In this document: piece after piece, positions 1 through 53,472 of the stretch
Layout: each line of letters opens with the position of its first letter
Position numbering within the stretch: the stretch's first letter is position 1
Origin: Lysobacter soli
Lineage (GTDB): Bacteria > Pseudomonadota > Gammaproteobacteria > Xanthomonadales > Xanthomonadaceae
Assembly: GCF_003382285.1 (NCBI RefSeq)
Contig: NZ_QTJR01000019.1
Span: 1-53,472, forward strand
Length of the DNA: 53,472 nt
Direction: 5' to 3'
Notes under the pieces: model-generated
What the model was told of the DNA's origin: nothing
The model's input: the letters and a program-made list of their open reading frames with translations, nothing else
Database searches by the model: none
Translations under genes and position numbers: made by a program

Positions 1-68
1 TCGCGTCAGGAGCGAATGGTTTTGGTTACTTTTGCCGAAACAAAAGTAACCCGCTCGTTTACGAGCGG
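1..68 (+). repeat. Family B structured repeat, partial copy B1
   Basis: This is the 3' end of a family B repeat, cut by the window edge. It keeps hairpin P4, with GTTACTTTTG at 25-34 pairing with CAAAAGTAAC at 41-50. It also keeps hairpin P5, with CCGCTCGT at 51-58 pairing with ACGAGCGG at 61-68. The conserved GGAAGCT tail follows. Longer copies lie at 37.1, 37.4 and 53.2 kb. It sits downstream of the minus-strand DoxX gene. Positions 69-153 hold nothing I recognise. Confidence 0.8.
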
Positions 69-153
69 AAGCTCTTGACCTTGCTTCTACACAATCCCGC
101 GAACGGGACAAGGTCGGCTGCAGCCATCACATTGCTGCAACCGACCCGCAGAC

Positions 154-28929: not shown

Positions 28930-29312
28930 ATTCCCGCGAAGGCGGGAATCCAGGGACTTTCCACGCTTTCCCGGTAACGTTCGAAGAGCAAAGAAGAATC
29001 ACCCGCCAAGCTTCCGATCGCCTGCGGCGCTCGGGTCACTTTTCTTTGCTTGCCCAAAGAAAAGTAACCAAAAGAAAGGGCCTTCCATTTGCCCAAATCA
29101 ATCCTGCGACCGGCGAAGGAGTAGGCGCGTTCGCGATTCGCCATCCATGGCTCAGCGCTCACCGCCGCACATCCTGTGCGGCGCCCTTCGGGGCTAGCAA
29201 CGAACAGGCTGTTCAACAGCAACCGCAACAGCAACAGCAACAAACGGATCCTGCTTCCCCTGGAATGACGGCGCGCCTTAGCCCCTCTCCCATCGGGAGA
29301 GGGGTTGGGGTG
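28930..29312. repeat. Family A composite repeat, copy A1 (with R1 and R2)
   Basis: The left edge is an R1 palindrome (ATTCCCGCGAAGGCGGGAAT at 28930-28949). Then come hairpin P5' (CCGATCGCC/GGCGCTCGG, 29014-29034) and hairpin P4' (CTTTTCTTTG 29039-29048 with CAAAGAAAAG 29055-29064). A CCGCACA/TGTGCGG hairpin follows, then a CAACAG-type run near 29215-29250, a decayed R1 and an R2 palindrome near 29282. Copies A2 and A3 have the same order. It lies between the convergent speG and cyclophilin genes. The rest of 28872-29440 holds no gene; reading frames through it recur in all copies and are spurious. Confidence 0.85.
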
Positions 29313-36130: not shown

Positions 36131-37027
36131 ATGGATCGAGCGGTCGACAGTCGCGTAGTGGAACGCGAGCGCCAGTCCGAATCCGCCACGCACGGCACGC
36201 GCCTTCGCGCGCTGATCGTCGACGACGAGCCGCTCGCGCGCCGCGGGCTTGAAATCCGCCTGGAAGCGCATCCGGACGTCGAGATCGTCGGCGAGTACGG
36301 CGACGGCCTGTCGGCCATCGCTGGCATGCGCGAGCATCGCCCGGACCTGGTCTTCCTCGACGTGCAGATGCCGGGCATGGACGGCTTCGAAACGCTGCGC
36401 AGCATTCCCGCGCACGAGATGCCGCTGGTGGTCTTCGTCACCGCGTACGACCACTACGCGATCCGCGCATTCGAGGCCTCCGCGACCGACTACCTGCTCA
36501 AGCCCGTCGAGGAGGGCCGCCTGGCGCAGGCGCTTGCCCGCGTGCAGCAGGCGCGTTCGCAGCGCGAGGCGAGCGGCCACTGCGCGCATCTGCTCGGCCT
36601 GCTCGGCGAGCTGAGTGGGCGGCCGCTGCTCGACCTGGACGAAGCGTTGAAGCCTGATGCGCTGGAACAACTGCGCCGCGACGACAAGCTCGCCGTGCGC
36701 GACGGCGGCCGCACCGTGCGCGTGGACCTGTCGAGCATCCGCTGGATCGATGCGGCCGGCGATTACATGTGCATCCACACCGACGGTCCGGCCGATCGCG
36801 CCGCGCCGCAGGGCGAGACGCTGGTGCTGCGCGCGACGATGCGCGATCTGGAAAAACAGCTGGACCCGCAGCGCTTCCCGCGCATCCACCGGTCTACGAT
36901 CGTGAATGCGCGCCGCGTGGTGGAGTTGCGGCCGCATACAAACGGGGAAGGATTCCTGCGGCTGGATTGCGGGCAGGAGTTGAAGTTGTCGCGGACGCAT
37001 CGCGACAAGCTGGCGCTTTTGATTTGA
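36131..37027 (+). CDS. LytTR family response regulator
   Basis: This 298-residue protein has a receiver domain (residues 26-140) with acidic pocket VDDEP, phosphoacceptor Asp77 in LVFLDVQMPGMDG, Thr104 in VTAYD and Lys124 in LLKPVEEG. A C-terminal LytTR DNA-binding domain (about 195-298) includes IRWIDAAGDYMCIH and RFPRIHRSTIVNARRV. It is the cognate partner of the kinase gene upstream. LytTR regulators bind direct repeats; I could not point to sites in the window. A family B repeat begins about 60-80 bp after its stop. Confidence 0.94.
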   Translation: MDRAVDSRVVERERQSESATHGTRLRALIVDDEPLARRGLEIRLEAHPDVEIVGEYGDGLSAIAGMREHRPDLVFLDVQMPGMDGFETLRSIPAHEMPLVVFVTAYDHYAIRAFEASATDYLLKPVEEGRLAQALARVQQARSQREASGHCAHLLGLLGELSGRPLLDLDEALKPDALEQLRRDDKLAVRDGGRTVRVDLSSIRWIDAAGDYMCIHTDGPADRAAPQGETLVLRATMRDLEKQLDPQRFPRIHRSTIVNARRVVELRPHTNGEGFLRLDCGQELKLSRTHRDKLALLI

Positions 37028-37104
37028 GGCTTGCGACAGCTCTTGCCGTAGCTCGGGCTTGTGCTCGGGCTTTTGATGTTGACCTTGATCTTCATCAGCG
37101 ACTT

Positions 37105-37371
37105 AAAGCGAGCCGAGCACCGGAGCTGGAAAAGGGCGAAGAGTCGCCCGCTGTCTGAGCGGAGCGTAGCGCAGCGAGTTCGGGCGACGACCCTTTTCCG
37201 GCGAGGAGCGCAGGGCACCGCCGCGCAGCGGCGACTCGCGTCAGGAGCGAACGGTTTTGGCTACTTTTGCCAAGACAAAAGTAATCGCCCTTCAGGGCGG
37301 AAGCTGTTGCTCGTGATGTTGATCTTGTTGCTGCGGCCTTGGGCAGCCATTAGCAAAGCTGTAGCAACAGC
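37105..37371 (+). repeat. Family B structured repeat, copy B2
   Basis: The order of elements is as follows. P1: GGAAAAGGG (37128-37136) pairs with CCCTTTTCC (37191-37199). P2: GTCGCCCG (37143-37150) pairs with CGGGCGAC (37181-37188). P3: CGCCGC (37219-37224) pairs with GCGGCG (37228-37233). P4: TACTTTTG (37262-37269) pairs with CAAAAGTA (37276-37283). P5: CGCCCT (37286-37291) pairs with AGGGCG (37294-37299). A tail GGAAGCTGTTGCTCGTG... runs to about 37371. P1 differs on both arms from copies B3 and B4, yet pairs. Confidence 0.88.
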
Positions 37372-37392
37372 ATTCAAGCAAGTGCAAAGCTT

Positions 37393-37590
37393 CCGCTCGC
37401 AAGCGAGCGGGTTACTTTTGTTTCGGCAAAAGTAACCAAAACCAACCGCTCCTGACGCGAGCCGGCGCCGCTACGCGACGCCGGTCCCCTGCGCTCCTCG
37501 CCAATCAGGGGACGTCGCCCAAACTCGCTGCGCTCGGACAGTGGGCGACTCTTCGCCCCTGATTGGCTCCGGTGCTCGGCTCGCTTTAAG
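37393..37590 (-). repeat. Family B structured repeat, copy B3 (reverse orientation)
   Basis: B3 faces B2. P1 arms lie at 37503-37511 and 37556-37564 (AATCAGGGG/CCCCTGATT). P2 arms lie at 37514-37521 and 37542-37549 (GTCGCCCA/TGGGCGAC). P3 arms lie at 37462-37471 and 37475-37484. P4 arms lie at 37411-37420 and 37427-37436. P5 arms lie at 37393-37400 and 37403-37410 (CCGCTCGC/GCGAGCGG). The P2 loop is 10 bases shorter than in B2 and B4. B2 and B3 together form an inverted pair in the 1284-bp gap before the RND genes. Confidence 0.88.
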
Positions 37591-37617
37591 TCGCTGCAAA
37601 AGACGGAAAGCAACGGC

Positions 37618-37985
<368 letters not shown>

Positions 37986-38311: not shown

Positions 38312-41300
38312 ATGAAACTCACCGAAGCCTCGTTGCGCAATCCCGCCGCGGTCGCCGTCGCCGTCGCGATGGTCTGCGCCTTCGGCCTGCTGTGCCTTCT
38401 CAAGCTGCCGCTGCAACTGTTCCCCGATATCGAACGCCCGCAGATGTCGATCCAGACCAGCTGGCGCGCCGCGTCGCCGCAGGAAATGGAATCGGAAATC
38501 GTCGAGCCGATCGAAGCGGTGATGCAGGGGCTGCCCGGGCTGGCGGAGATCGAATCCAACATCAACGCCGGCAACAGTTTCATCAACCTGACCTTCGCCG
38601 TCGGCAGCGACATGGACGCCACGCTGGTCGAAGTGCTCTCGCGCATGAACCGCCTGCAGCCGCTGCCGCGCGATGCCACGCCGCCGGTCGTGCAGGCCGG
38701 CGCCGACAACGCCAACAACTCGCTCACCTATTTCTTCGTGCAGCAATTGCCGGGCACGCCGGGCGACATCCTCGACCAGCGGCAAATGATCGAGGACCGC
38801 ATCGTGCCGCGGCTGTCCGCCGTGGAGGGCGTCGCGGGCGTGGAGATCAACGGCGGCGCGCCGGAGGAACTCACCATCACGGTGAACCTGGAGCGCGCGG
38901 CCGCACTGGGCATCCAGATCCCGCAGATAGCCGACGTCGCCGCGCGCGCGACCGACGTGTCCGGCGGTGTCGTCGAGGCCGGTCGTCGCGAATACGTTCT
39001 GAGGTTCGCCGGGCGCTATTCCCCCGAAGCGCTCGGCAACCTCATCCTCGCCTGGCGCGACGGCCGGCCGGTGCGGCTGGGCGATGTCGCCAATGTGGAA
39101 GTGAAGCGGCCCGAGCAGCGCTTTTTCGCCTACCAGAACGGCAATCCCGCCATCGGCCTGCGCATCCTGCGCGAGAGCGGCGCGAACGTGCTCGACACGC
39201 TCGACCGCGTGAAGGCGGTCGTGGAGGAAGTGCGCTTGAAGGAACTGGCGCCGCTCGGGCTCGACATCCGCCAGAGCTTCGACGCCTCGGTGTTCATCAA
39301 CCGCGCGATCGGCCTGCTGTCGGGCAGCCTCGGCGCAGGCGTGCTGCTCGCGGTGGGCTGCCTGTGGTGGTTCCTGCGCGACGTCCGCGCGACCGCGCTC
39401 ATCGCCTGCGCGATTCCTATTTCGCTGCTGGCGACCTTCATCGTGCTCAAGCTCACCGGGCGCAGCCTCAACGTGATCTCGCTCGCCGGCCTGGCGTTCG
39501 CGGTCGGCATGGTGATGGACGCCGCGGTCGTCGTCGCCGAAAACATCGTACGCCTGCGCGAAGAAGGCGTGCCTGCCAAACAGCCCGCGCTCGACGGCAC
39601 GCGGCAGGTCGGCGGCGCGCTGGTCGCGTCCACGCTGACGACCATAGCGGTGTTCCTGCCGGTGATCTTCATGGAAGACGTCGAAGGGCAGCTGTTCGCG
39701 GACCTCGCGCTGACGATTTCCATCGCCGTCGGCATCTCGCTGCTGATCGCCGTCACCGTGCTGCCCGCCGCCGCGAGTTCGTGGCTGCGCACGCGCGAGG
39801 ACGTGCACGAGCAGAAGCAGCATCGCTTCTGGATCGGCGTCAGCGACTGGGCGATGCGCGCCACGAGCAGCCGCCGCAACCAGCTGGCATGGGTCGGTGC
39901 GCTGGTCGTCGCGCCGATCGTGCTGACCGTGGTGCTGATGCCGAAGATCGACTACCTGCCGCCGGTGAAGCGCGCGGCGGTGGACGCGATCTTCAACTTC
40001 CCGCCCGGCATGAGCCCGGAGCGCGTGAACGCCGAGATCGCGCCGACGCTGCTGGCGCGTATGAAGCCGTACATGGACGGCGAGAAGGCGCCGCAGCTGA
40101 GCAACTGGTACCTCAACCTGTGGCCCGGCGGCGGCACCGTGGGTGCACGCGTGGTCGATCCGGACGACATCGGCGAACTCGAACGCATCGTGCGCGATGA
40201 AGTGGCCGTCGGTTTCCCCGACACGCGCGCCTTCGCCAGCGAAGGCGAGTTGTTTGGCAGCTTCGGCGGTTCGGCGCGCGCCATCGCGATCCACCTCCAG
40301 CACGCAGACGGCGACGCGCTGACGCGCGCGGCGGAAACCGGCCGGAAACTGCTGTCGGAGAAGTTCGCCGGCGCGAACGTGCAGGCGTGGCCGAATGCCG
40401 ACGCCGGCACGCCGGAGCTGCGCATCAATCCCGACGATCGCCGCCTCGCCGAAGTGGGCTGGCGCCGGCCGGATCTTGCCACGGTGGTGCGTGCGCTCGG
40501 CGACGGGCAATGGCTTGGCGAATACTTCGACGGCGACCGGCGCCTGGCGATCATCCTTCGCAGCGATCGCGAGGACGACGTCGAGCGCCTGGGCGCCGCG
40601 CCGCTCGCCACGCCGAACGGCGGCGCGCTGACGCTGGCGGAACTGGCGCAGGTCGACACCGTGCTCGCGCCCAACCAGATGCGGCGCGTCGATCGGCGCC
40701 GCACGGTGACCCTCACCGTCGATCCGCCGCCAGCGATGTCGCTGGAAGAGGCGCTGGGCATCGTCGAAGGCGACGTCGTGCCCGTGCTGCGCGATGCGCT
40801 GCCGCAGGATGCCGCGATCCGCGTATCGGGCAGCGCCGACCGCCTCGGCGAGGTCGTGCGCAGCATGGGCACGAACTTCGCGATGGCACTGGTGGTGTTG
40901 TTCCTGCTGATGGCGGCGATGTTCAGGTCGCTGCGTGATTCGGCCTACGTGATGGCGACACTGCCGATGGCGGTTCTCGGCGGCGTGATCGGCCTGCGCG
41001 TGCTGGACCTCATCGCCGGACAGACGCTCGACCTGCTGTCGATGATCGGTTTCATCATGCTGCTGGGCATGGTGATCAACAACGCGATCCTGCTCGTTGC
41101 GCAGGCGCGCGAAGGGCAGGCCGCGGGCGTGACGCTCGACGAGGCGCTCAAGCAGGCGCTGGACCAGCGGCTTCGCCCGATCCTCATCGGTGCGTTGACC
41201 GGCGTGCTTGGCGCGCTGCCGATGGCGATCAACCCCGGCCCGGGCGCGGTGATCTACCGCGGGCTTGCCGCGGTGTCCGTCGGCGGCGTCGCGCTGAGCC

Positions 41301-41392
41301 TGGTGTTCATCGTGGTGCTGGTGCCGGCGCTGCTGCGACTGGCCGAATCGCGCCGCGAACGCATCGAAGCCGGCGCCCCCGCGCTGGCCTGA
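38312..41392 (+). CDS. RND efflux transporter permease
   Basis: This 1026-residue protein has twelve predicted helices and two large periplasmic loops, the normal RND size and layout. It begins MKLTEASLRNPAAVAVAVAM, with a periplasmic start LKLPLQLFPDIERPQMSI. In helix 4, AVGMVMDAAVVVAENIVR has one Asp where AcrB has two. In helix 10, MLLGMVINNAILLVAQARE has Asn where AcrB has the essential Lys. These changes match an RND subgroup rather than a broken gene. The adaptor follows 30 bp downstream. No outer-membrane factor is present. The ATG at 38312 follows GGAGCCGCACG. Confidence 0.93.
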   Translation: MKLTEASLRNPAAVAVAVAMVCAFGLLCLLKLPLQLFPDIERPQMSIQTSWRAASPQEMESEIVEPIEAVMQGLPGLAEIESNINAGNSFINLTFAVGSDMDATLVEVLSRMNRLQPLPRDATPPVVQAGADNANNSLTYFFVQQLPGTPGDILDQRQMIEDRIVPRLSAVEGVAGVEINGGAPEELTITVNLERAAALGIQIPQIADVAARATDVSGGVVEAGRREYVLRFAGRYSPEALGNLILAWRDGRPVRLGDVANVEVKRPEQRFFAYQNGNPAIGLRILRESGANVLDTLDRVKAVVEEVRLKELAPLGLDIRQSFDASVFINRAIGLLSGSLGAGVLLAVGCLWWFLRDVRATALIACAIPISLLATFIVLKLTGRSLNVISLAGLAFAVGMVMDAAVVVAENIVRLREEGVPAKQPALDGTRQVGGALVASTLTTIAVFLPVIFMEDVEGQLFADLALTISIAVGISLLIAVTVLPAAASSWLRTREDVHEQKQHRFWIGVSDWAMRATSSRRNQLAWVGALVVAPIVLTVVLMPKIDYLPPVKRAAVDAIFNFPPGMSPERVNAEIAPTLLARMKPYMDGEKAPQLSNWYLNLWPGGGTVGARVVDPDDIGELERIVRDEVAVGFPDTRAFASEGELFGSFGGSARAIAIHLQHADGDALTRAAETGRKLLSEKFAGANVQAWPNADAGTPELRINPDDRRLAEVGWRRPDLATVVRALGDGQWLGEYFDGDRRLAIILRSDREDDVERLGAAPLATPNGGALTLAELAQVDTVLAPNQMRRVDRRRTVTLTVDPPPAMSLEEALGIVEGDVVPVLRDALPQDAAIRVSGSADRLGEVVRSMGTNFAMALVVLFLLMAAMFRSLRDSAYVMATLPMAVLGGVIGLRVLDLIAGQTLDLLSMIGFIMLLGMVINNAILLVAQAREGQAAGVTLDEALKQALDQRLRPILIGALTGVLGALPMAINPGPGAVIYRGLAAVSVGGVALSLVFIVVLVPALLRLAESRRERIEAGAPALA

Positions 41393-42631: not shown

Positions 42632-43144
42632 GTTGTTGCTGTTGCTGTTGATTTGCGCGTGCTCTTGTTCGTCATTCCAGCGAAAGCTGGAATCCATCTT
42701 GCCGTTGCCGTTGCCGTTGTAGTTGCCGTTGCTCTTGCTCGTCATTCCCGCGAAGGCGGGAATCCATGGACTTCCACGCTTTACCTGAAGCCTGGAAGAG
42801 CAAAGAAGAATCACAATCCAAGCTTCCGATCGCCTGCGGCGCTCGGGTCACTTTTCTTTGCTTGCCCAAAGAAAAGTAACCAAAAGAAAGGGCCTTCCAT
42901 TTGCCCAAATCAATCCCACGACCGGAAAGCGAGTAGGCGCGTTCGCGATTCGCCATCCATGGCTCAGCGCTCACCGCCGCACATCCTGTGCGGCGCCCTA
43001 CGGGGCTAGCAATGAATGGGCTGTTCGACAGCAAACAGCAACAGCAAATGGATTCCAGCTTTCGCTGGAATGACGGCGCGCCTAAGCCCCTCTCCCTCCG
43101 GCGACCGAAGGGAGTGCAGAGCTGAGAGGGGTTGGGGTGAGGGT
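42632..43144. repeat. Hexamer stretch, R1 and family A composite repeat copy A2
   Basis: The stretch begins with GTTGCT-type hexamers (about 42632-42655 and 42700-42735) and an R1 copy at 42674-42693. Copy A2 proper runs from R1 at 42744-42763, through P5' (from 42826) and P4' (42846-42881), to a CAGCAA run at about 43028-43048. It ends with an inverted R1 at 43052-43071 and an R2 with a long loop (43087-43132). It lies between the convergent adaptor and EAL genes. No gene is supported in 42572-43207. Confidence 0.85.
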
Positions 43145-52401: not shown

Positions 52402-52979
<578 letters not shown>

Positions 52980-53039: not shown

Positions 53040-53472
53040 ATGGATCCCAGCGTTCCCTGGAATGACGTGGGAATGGGTCAACGTTGAAGGAGTGCCCAAG
53101 CACTCCTGGCCTGGATCCCGGCTTTCGCCGGGATGACGATGTTCTTGACCCGCCATCGCCCTTTCCGCTTGCCGCTGCCTTTGCCGTTGCTTGCGCTCTT
53201 GATCTCCAGCGACTTAAAGCGAGCCGAGCACCGCAGGGAATCAGGGGCGTAGAGTCGCCCACTGTTTGAGCGGAGCGAAGCGCAGCGAGTTTGGGCGACG
53301 TCCCCTGATTGCCGAGGAGCACAGGGCACCGCCGCGCAGCGGCGGCTCGCGTCAGGAGCGAACGGTTTTGGTTACTTTTGCCAAGACAAAAGTAACCCGC
53401 CCTTCAGGGCGGAAGCTGTTGCTCGTGATGTTGATCTTGTTGTGCGGCTTTGGGCAGCCATTAGCAAAGCTG
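53040..53472 (+). repeat. R1 copies and family B structured repeat copy B4
   Basis: Degraded and intact R1 copies lie near 53045 and 53115. B4 starts near 53208 and runs off the window. P1: AATCAGGGG (53239-53247) pairs with CCCCTGATT (53302-53310). P2: GTCGCCCA (53254-53261) pairs with TGGGCGAC (53292-53299). P3: CCGCCGC (53329-53335) pairs with GCGGCGG (53339-53345). P4: GTTACTTTTG (53371-53380) pairs with CAAAAGTAAC (53387-53396). P5: CCGCCCT (53397-53403) pairs with AGGGCGG (53406-53412). The tail matches that of B2. Confidence 0.88.

Follow-up and report, generated by a model that had tools for sequence, protein, structure and literature searches.

The question raised by this locus is whether a repeated, hairpin-rich intergenic sequence serves as a structured RNA or as a folded single strand of DNA. 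The window is the whole stretch analyzed, 53,472 nucleotides of a Lysobacter soli contig (NZ_QTJR01000019.1, assembly GCF_003382285.1). A preliminary description made from the sequence alone had reported at positions 37105-37590 a repeat, family B, with five hairpins and coordinated changes on both sides of its stems, and had proposed it as a candidate structured RNA or ssDNA element. A fold of about 205 nt with compensatory change at nearly every pair, found in about one third of the sampled genomes of the bacterial family (49/149), is rarely functionless. Our best reading is that family B is a large, REP/BIME-like, non-autonomous chromosomal repeat that is recognized through a folded strand.

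Anatomy of the repeat in the window

The repeat unit is an arm of about 205 nt, and the window contains three such arms (B2, B3 and B4) together with a fragment, B1 (Table 1). Since B3 lies on the minus strand, the interval 37105-37590 is an inverted pair and not a single five-hairpin unit: the repeat is real, but it consists of two arms facing each other. The stems quoted in the preliminary description exist, although the fold also has a closing stem and a three-way junction. Present in the sequence as described were the P1 alleles (GGAAAAGGG/CCCTTTTCC in B2, AATCAGGGG/CCCCTGATT in B3 and B4), the last P2 pair (G-C in B2, A-T in B3 and B4), the variation of P5 among copies and, in the window arms, the P1-P2 internal loop of six bases on one side and two on the other. 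The B2/B3 pair sits between co-directional genes. Two open reading frames overlapping the arms had no Pfam match at E 0.001, and a protein-coding reading of the arms was rejected on that basis.

Table 1. Positions of family B features in the window and of nested modules at other loci
Feature	Position	Strand	Remarks
B2, type A arm (closing stem, Pa, P1, P2, P3, P4, P5)	37098..37304	+	RNA fold z -2.91
B2 P1, 5' side	37125..37136	+	pairs with 37191-37202; sequence, fold, covariation
B2 P1, 3' side	37191..37202	+	pairs with 37125-37136; sequence, fold, covariation
B2 P2, 5' side	37143..37150	+	pairs with 37181-37188; apical part is an (AGCGN)n run
B2 P2, 3' side	37181..37188	+	pairs with 37143-37150
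B2 P3 hairpin	37219..37233	+	GCA triloop
B2 P4 hairpin	37262..37283	+	tacttttg ... caaaagta
B2 P5 hairpin	37286..37299	+	cgccc ttca gggcg
Centre separating B2 and B3	37305..37388		84 nt
B3, type B arm	37389..37594	-	P4 loop CGAAAC, P5 CGCTCGCTTGCGAGCG; anatomy as B2, inverted; RNA fold z -4.79
5' flank of B2	37039..37097	+	T-rich; 6-nt periodicity weak or none by eye
5' leader of B3	37595..37655	-	(GTTGCT/GTTGCC)n array, reads as CAACAG repeats on +
B4 arm	53209..53416	+	contig end 56 nt downstream; RNA fold z -3.61
B1 fragment	1..73	+	3' part of arm (junction end, P4, P5), truncated by contig start
LytTR response-regulator gene	36158-37027	+	one side of B2/B3 pair; Pfam, gene calls
AcrB-type transporter gene	38312-41392	+	other side of B2/B3 pair; Pfam, gene calls
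Nested module in P2 loop	L042 2036-2317; L043 12-283; L047 2086-2367; L063 2476-2765
Nested module at another place, not P2 loop	L068 2013-2291

Consensus fold and covariation

To describe the fold we used RNAalifold on an alignment (A1) of 43 arms, 42 of them distinct, from five genomes. Sixty-three hits had yielded 48 cut arms (15 partial or divergent hits were omitted), from which the five arms carrying nested inserts were dropped. The consensus contained 60 pairs in 11 helices. A closing stem (GC/GC, CTT/AGG and GCGA/TCGC), a long arm (CC/GG, then Pa, GCACC/GGAGC with an A.A mismatch, then P1 and P2) and P3 form a three-way-junction domain of about 160 nt, which is followed on the 3' side by the P4 and P5 hairpins.

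Standard pairs accounted for 98.6% of the 2512 pair cells of A1 versus 92.4% in shuffles, and double changes were found at 24 of the 60 pairs, versus 11.0 in shuffles and at most 12 when the partners were slid by 1-3 columns. A covariance model made from A1 (R1) gave 126 matches among 80 of 116 scaffold-pattern stretches listed. The alignment of these homologues was fitted to the R1 model and so leans toward it; within it, standard pairs reached 94.9% (75.8% shuffled), double changes occurred at 57/60 pairs (33.9 shuffled, at most 36 slid) and the covariation score was 0.432 (at most 0.058 slid). The scaffold scan pattern fixes part of the junction sequence, so the constancy of the junction arises partly by selection of copies. 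One Pa pair, columns 24:113, was also read with no structural fitting; both anchors were located in 146 of 174 arms, and the other 28 were omitted. It was C-G in 91 arms, T-A in 49, T-G in 2, C-A in 2, G-C in 1 and C-C in 1, and was non-standard in only 3 of the 146. Among 24 arms of a single genome (G008), which were 82%-99% identical, paired columns differed at 0.077 and unpaired columns at 0.129. The single DNA fold run gave a z-score of -2.16 (RNA values in Table 1).

The proposal that the coordinated stem changes reflect a selected fold was thus borne out in both alignments: the repeat is conserved so that its sense strand can fold. It is extremely unlikely that the apparent covariation is an artefact of a few ancestral palindromes copied around in the absence of selection for pairing. 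Blocks of P1 alleles do spread, and some history is shared by sequences counted separately, but 57 of the 60 pairs were double-changed across many genera in the 126 homologues (80 of 116 stretches listed), the Pa pair covaries with no structural fitting, and the strand asymmetry described below persists when sequences are collapsed into source groups.

The sense strand is the strand kept foldable

Mismatches within stems were used to determine which strand folds. Stems were defined from Watson-Crick pairs only, with equal cost for every mismatch, and single mismatches flanked by Watson-Crick pairs were counted. Among 251 unique stems there were 59 G.T versus 9 A.C mismatches, and 39 G.A/A.G versus 6 C.T/T.C. 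With one count per source group, a count in which 25 of 169 rows lacked usable anchors, the values were 40 versus 9 (p 9e-6) and 30 versus 6 (p 7e-5), and A.C exceeded G.T in no group among the 15 that had such mismatches. As a control, CGTC-type REPs gave 2 G.T and 4 A.C in a small set of only 24 unique stems, and 1 of each in 10 stems with a stricter pattern. The excess of G.T and G.A over A.C and C.T indicates that the sense strand, on which the stems had originally been described, is the one kept foldable. Thermodynamics alone separated the strands poorly (for B2, z -2.91 sense and -2.09 antisense). RNA and single-stranded DNA both tolerate G.T and G.A better, so the asymmetry does not choose between them; a structured RNA or ssDNA element is supported, and these data do not decide which of the two it is.

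A period-6 leader precedes many arms

The preliminary description had missed a feature of many copies, a degenerate, A-poor array of period 6 lying directly 5' of the arm with units of the type (GTTGCC)n, (GTTGCT)n or (TTTGGC)n. A strict pattern with TTG every 6 nt was present in 84 of 170 upstream flanks and absent from 86. By source, it was found in 21/25 flanks in G008, 0/3 in G013 and 54/122 at the loci of the scaffold scan (80 of 116 stretches listed). Its complement was found in 0/170 upstream flanks, and the strict pattern itself in 19/171 downstream flanks and 15/11451 background windows. Identity at lag 6 was 0.567 upstream, compared with 0.341 downstream and 0.328 in 9790 background windows, and exceeded 0.6 in 39.6% of 169 upstream windows versus a fraction of 0.000 of background. 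Upstream flanks contained 9.0% A and 32.7% T. In the window the leader is clear next to B3 and weak next to B2.

Distribution and gene context

A DNA-level search gave 30 matches in the genome of origin (G000), both strands counted, while R1 gave 14. DNA-level matches were found in 11 of 39 relatives, and within one genus the number ranged from none (G001, G004, G007, G010, G011) to 54 (G008), again with both strands counted. R1 found the repeat in 49 of the 149 family genomes sampled and in 26 of 54 genera; its per-genome counts are lower bounds, as 16 candidates were scored per genome. Among the matches listed, the scaffold pattern occurred in Stenotrophomonas, Luteimonas, Pseudoxanthomonas, Xanthomonas, Lysobacter and a few other Gammaproteobacteria.

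Arm groups were placed relative to genes called with a codon model that reproduces the Pfam-supported genes. The units lie between genes, as single arms or as inverted pairs of both orientations (>< and <>): none of 119 groups overlapped a called gene by more than 60 nt, open reading frames wholly within a group being set aside. Gene context could be classed for 82 of the 119 groups (of the rest, 5 had a neighbour beyond 700 nt and 32 lacked one in the stretch). Of the 82, 48 lay between convergent, 30 between co-directional and 4 between divergent genes, whereas the 396 intergenic gaps above 50 nt at the same loci, repeat sites included, comprised 84 convergent, 211 co-directional and 101 divergent gaps. 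Single arms between co-directional genes were in sense in 5 cases and antisense in 10, which is unlike a cis-acting mRNA element.

Hairpins that stop or protect transcripts from either side, as bidirectional terminators or 3' barriers of mRNA, would be expected to gather between convergent genes, and the enrichment there and the rarity between divergent genes agree with this. Terminator-like sites were also more frequent than expected at 37000-37700 (5 versus 1.5), three of the five entries being the P5 hairpins of B2 and B3 in antisense reading. On the other hand, a plain terminator needs no conserved three-way junction, covarying Pa helix or 5' array, the T-tract is short and interrupted, and the element of the window itself lies between co-directional genes. 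REPs generally avoid promoters, so position alone says little. We consider a terminator function improbable; the terminator-like P5 sites do not explain the junction.

Comparison with known repeats and RNAs

No named RNA family had been recognized beforehand, and a search of the whole window against Rfam likewise gave no match at gathering score, which places the window copies outside the Rfam families at that score. A MIR904 hit at 37237-37459 (30.7 bits; gathering 80) was taken as chance arising from the inverted arms. A transposon end or an rRNA- or tRNA-derived repeat had been named as a finding that would speak against the proposal, and the searches made found no such match. No published description of the repeat was found in the open-licence PMC literature, as judged by titles and the starts of abstracts, and sequence words of the repeat matched there only papers unrelated by title.

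The closest likeness is to REP/BIME elements of the GTAG and CGTC types. In the portions of Di Nocera 2013 (PMC3733652) available to us, these are hairpin repeats scattered through intergenic DNA, frequently as inverted pairs and mostly between convergent or co-directional genes, and CGTC REPs also occur with no transposase. Family B likewise has many extragenic copies (119 groups), both single and in inverted pairs, and CGTC-type REPs sit in the centres of arm pairs in G008. REPs are however palindromes of 20-40 bp (PMC3733652, same portions), those of the GTAG type with an unpaired GTAG tag, whereas a family B unit is a branched structure of about 205 nt and 60 pairs that includes a three-way junction and two extra hairpins and often has a period-6 leader. 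GTAG REPs accompany RAYT transposases in those portions of PMC3733652, while a family B arm was absent beside 34 Y1 transposase loci at E 0.01. The terminal inverted repeats (TIRs) of the TIRYT transposases of S. maltophilia, a species which also carries family B, are moderately abundant, partly self-complementary and paired according to the same source (PMC3733652, in part). At the one S. maltophilia Y1 locus compared (L217), the GGGGTCAG palindromes fit the GGGGWSAS motif given there (PMC3733652) and are unlike the arms; this comparison covers the L217 palindromes only.

Neisserial intergenic mosaic elements (NIMEs) resemble family B as intergenic mosaics of several repeat classes with short palindromes, for which recombination between copies has been proposed (PMC3898611, excerpts). 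They differ in combining 20-bp dRS3 with 30-160 bp RS repeats, and a covarying fold is not among the traits described in those excerpts of PMC3898611. Family B shares with structured noncoding RNAs the compensatory changes and the single favoured strand. It is a dispersed intergenic hairpin repeat that stands out by how large and branched it is, by its strand-specific conservation, by the leader array and by the exchange of modules.

Age, loss and mobility

At the window locus the relative G002 keeps the pair, with P4, P5 and the centre missing (L046), and ten other relatives of the genus lack the element. In seven of these (G004, G005, G006, G007, G009, G010 and G011) the flanking matches were separated by only 85-232 bp, compared with approximately 1090-1220 bp in the window, while G008, G003 and G001 had other sequence of 678, 793 and 1197 bp, respectively. 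Certain positions were common to species, namely L039/L045 and the site of L037. At the latter, G000 carries an arm, G002 an arm in the other orientation with a nested insert, and G008 an arm beside the same upstream gene; no arm was found at this site in G001 and G007. Positions shared between species indicate that many copies are old, and repeat positions can be old while individual copies decay or are lost. The loci compared showed neither a target duplication nor a clean empty site; the intergenic sequence surrounding the element cannot be aligned from one species to another, which kept clean empty sites from being obtained. MITEs are marked by terminal inverted repeats with a target duplication; in family B the arms are inverted in pairs, and no duplication was seen at these loci.

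Two further observations were made in G008. At L060 (2078-2290) an arm judged by eye to be chimeric combines the 5' side of P1 from one allele with the 3' side from a second, which leaves its P1 mispaired, a sign of recombination between copies. In the pair centres of L054-L067, facing CGTC-type REPs form a repeat within a repeat.

Enzymes that might move the repeat were then searched for. Y1_Tnp scored above cut-off in none of 12 genomes of the genus, and below it in one of the 12. Three Y1 transposases were present in the carrier G013, of another genus, and some in 11 of 12 other carriers. No arm was detected at E 0.01 within 1.5 kb of 34 Y1 loci from G001, G013 and other carriers (34 of 35 places), the best score being 17.1 bits, and when all 174 arms were compared with these loci by blastn, no more than 5 short matches (22-35 nt) emerged. 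The low-scoring model hits that flank the L217 Y1 gene of S. maltophilia D457 (15.7 and 11.9 bits) were its GGGGTCAG palindromes. With no arm near the 34 Y1 loci at E 0.01 and the L217 palindromes unlike the arms, an origin as RAYT or TIRYT ends was not supported. A retroelement was rejected, as reverse transcriptase (PF00078) was found in 0/13 genomes, while 3/14 control genomes were positive. Searches of plasmids and phages with arm B2 as query, and of viral contigs with the exact scaffold pattern, gave no match, although either could miss diverged copies. Family B provides a test case for the spread of large intergenic repeats where a search of the carriers in the genus found no RAYT or reverse transcriptase.

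RNA or single-stranded DNA

We lean toward DNA. The unit consists of the period-6 array (in many copies), the junction domain of about 160 nt and the two 3' hairpins. In the mechanism we consider, its sense strand would become single-stranded during lagging-strand replication or in repair or recombination intermediates, and would then fold. A DNA-processing protein acting in trans may recognize the folded sense strand and copy or move the repeat, and recombination between copies, or between the flanking arrays, could swap P1-P2 blocks and generate inverted pairs. That folded single-stranded sense DNA is processed in trans in this way has, in our estimation, somewhat less than an even chance of being right.

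Several features point to DNA. Triloops end 34 of 69 unique P3 stems; 23 of the 34 unique triloops are GNA, and 33 of the 34 are closed by C-G. GNA triloops can form in RNA too. The motif GCGNAGC occurs 352 times in 169 arms versus 24.9 in 20 base shuffles and 9 for the other-strand form, a count to which the tandem (AGCGN)n run contributes many occurrences, and it is described as an unusually stable DNA mini-hairpin in the part of PMC4686876 available to us. Copy number is high and occurrence patchy (49/149 family genomes), and single arms between co-directional genes do not prefer the sense orientation. The mechanism is also favoured by the short distances at the window locus in 7 of 11 genus relatives and by the chimeric arm at L060. 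Positions shared between species speak against it, as does the lack of matches in plasmids and phages (arm B2 as query) and in viral contigs (exact scaffold pattern). Also against the mechanism, the genus carriers tested have neither Y1 (RAYT/IS200) transposase above cut-off nor reverse transcriptase, and 3 of the 10 relatives lacking the element have other sequence in its place (678-1197 bp). The RNA z-scores (-2.9 to -4.8) are also more negative than that of the sole DNA fold (-2.16).

Alternatively, the sense strand may act as a transcript, either within a 3' untranslated region or in the form of a small RNA, the junction domain binding a protein or protecting the transcript, with the repeats as its dispersed genes. 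The strand-specific fold, the RNA folding z-scores and the enrichment between convergent genes (48/82 groups versus 84/396 gaps) are consistent with this, as is the presence of TwoAYGGAY, an RNA motif with CsrA sites, in the scaffold of Pseudomaricurvus sp. HS19 and one metagenome-assembled genome (MAG). Where single arms lie between co-directional genes, however, they do not favour the sense orientation; no sigma-70-like promoter was found at 37000-37700, inverted pairs place one arm antisense to any read-through, and a single genus spans genomes with no match and one with 54 (counting both strands). We regard a structured RNA as possible but rather doubtful.

Modules, TwoAYGGAY and CsrA

TwoAYGGAY (RF01731; Weinberg 2010, PMC2864571, consulted in excerpt), an orphan RNA motif with two apical AYGGAY loops, is linked here to the repeat scaffold of family B. 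Rfam gave six matches above gathering, in Pseudomaricurvus sp. HS19 (L102, L105 and L136) and the MAG (L155), within the same outer scaffold. Four of the six lay between GCCGAGCACCGCAG and GCRCAGGG anchors and the other two in arms lacking these anchors; inside the scaffold the motif occupies the place where P1-P2 would be. The window arms differ in having no match at the gathering score of 43 bits and no GGA hairpin, and the region 37080-37610 gave no TwoAYGGAY hit up to E 1.

A second repeat of the window, family A (minus strand, 28960-29222, 42772-43034 and 52571-52830), has two GGA-loop hairpins resembling TwoAYGGAY and a (GTTGCT)n leader, and its P4-P5 tail looks by eye like that of family B. 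The strict leader pattern was found in 5 of 9 distinct family A flanks (9 of 14 when places are counted repeatedly), and a family A copy of the same genome scored 34.3 bits to TwoAYGGAY, under the gathering score. Five family B arms also contain a nested module of about 80 nt with two GGA-loop hairpins (Table 1), which gave no TwoAYGGAY hit up to E 0.5. The insertion point of the nested module was after CGA and before G.

TwoAYGGAY has been proposed to bind CsrA (PMC4333381, excerpt), and family B could by the same token act as a sponge for the RNA-binding protein CsrA/RsmA. The modules nested in L042, L043, L047, L063 and L068, the TwoAYGGAY matches within the scaffold of other genera and the score of the family A copy would fit such a role, and the density of GGA hairpins is higher within arms (0.96 per kb in sense, 0.71 in antisense) than in the DNA flanking them (0.34). 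Of 174 arms, however, only 24 have such a hairpin in sense and 26 have one in antisense, the three arms of the window have none, and the nested modules lack a TwoAYGGAY hit. A CsrA sponge as the function of family B was accordingly not supported and is very unlikely.

Tentatively, and with clearly less than an even chance of being right, one may envisage a gammaproteobacterial superfamily of modular elements that fold in a strand-specific way, in which a common period-6 leader and P4-P5 tail would surround exchangeable bodies, namely the family B junction or the TwoAYGGAY-type CsrA-site hairpins of family A and Pseudomaricurvus. Such elements would be spread and kept by a chromosomal process using neither Y1 transposase nor reverse transcriptase, and TwoAYGGAY would be one module and not an independent RNA. 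Another intergenic palindrome, at L092 (2860-3120), carries the TGAGCG(NAGCG)n tip also seen in the family B P2, so that this hairpin tip looks like a separate module.
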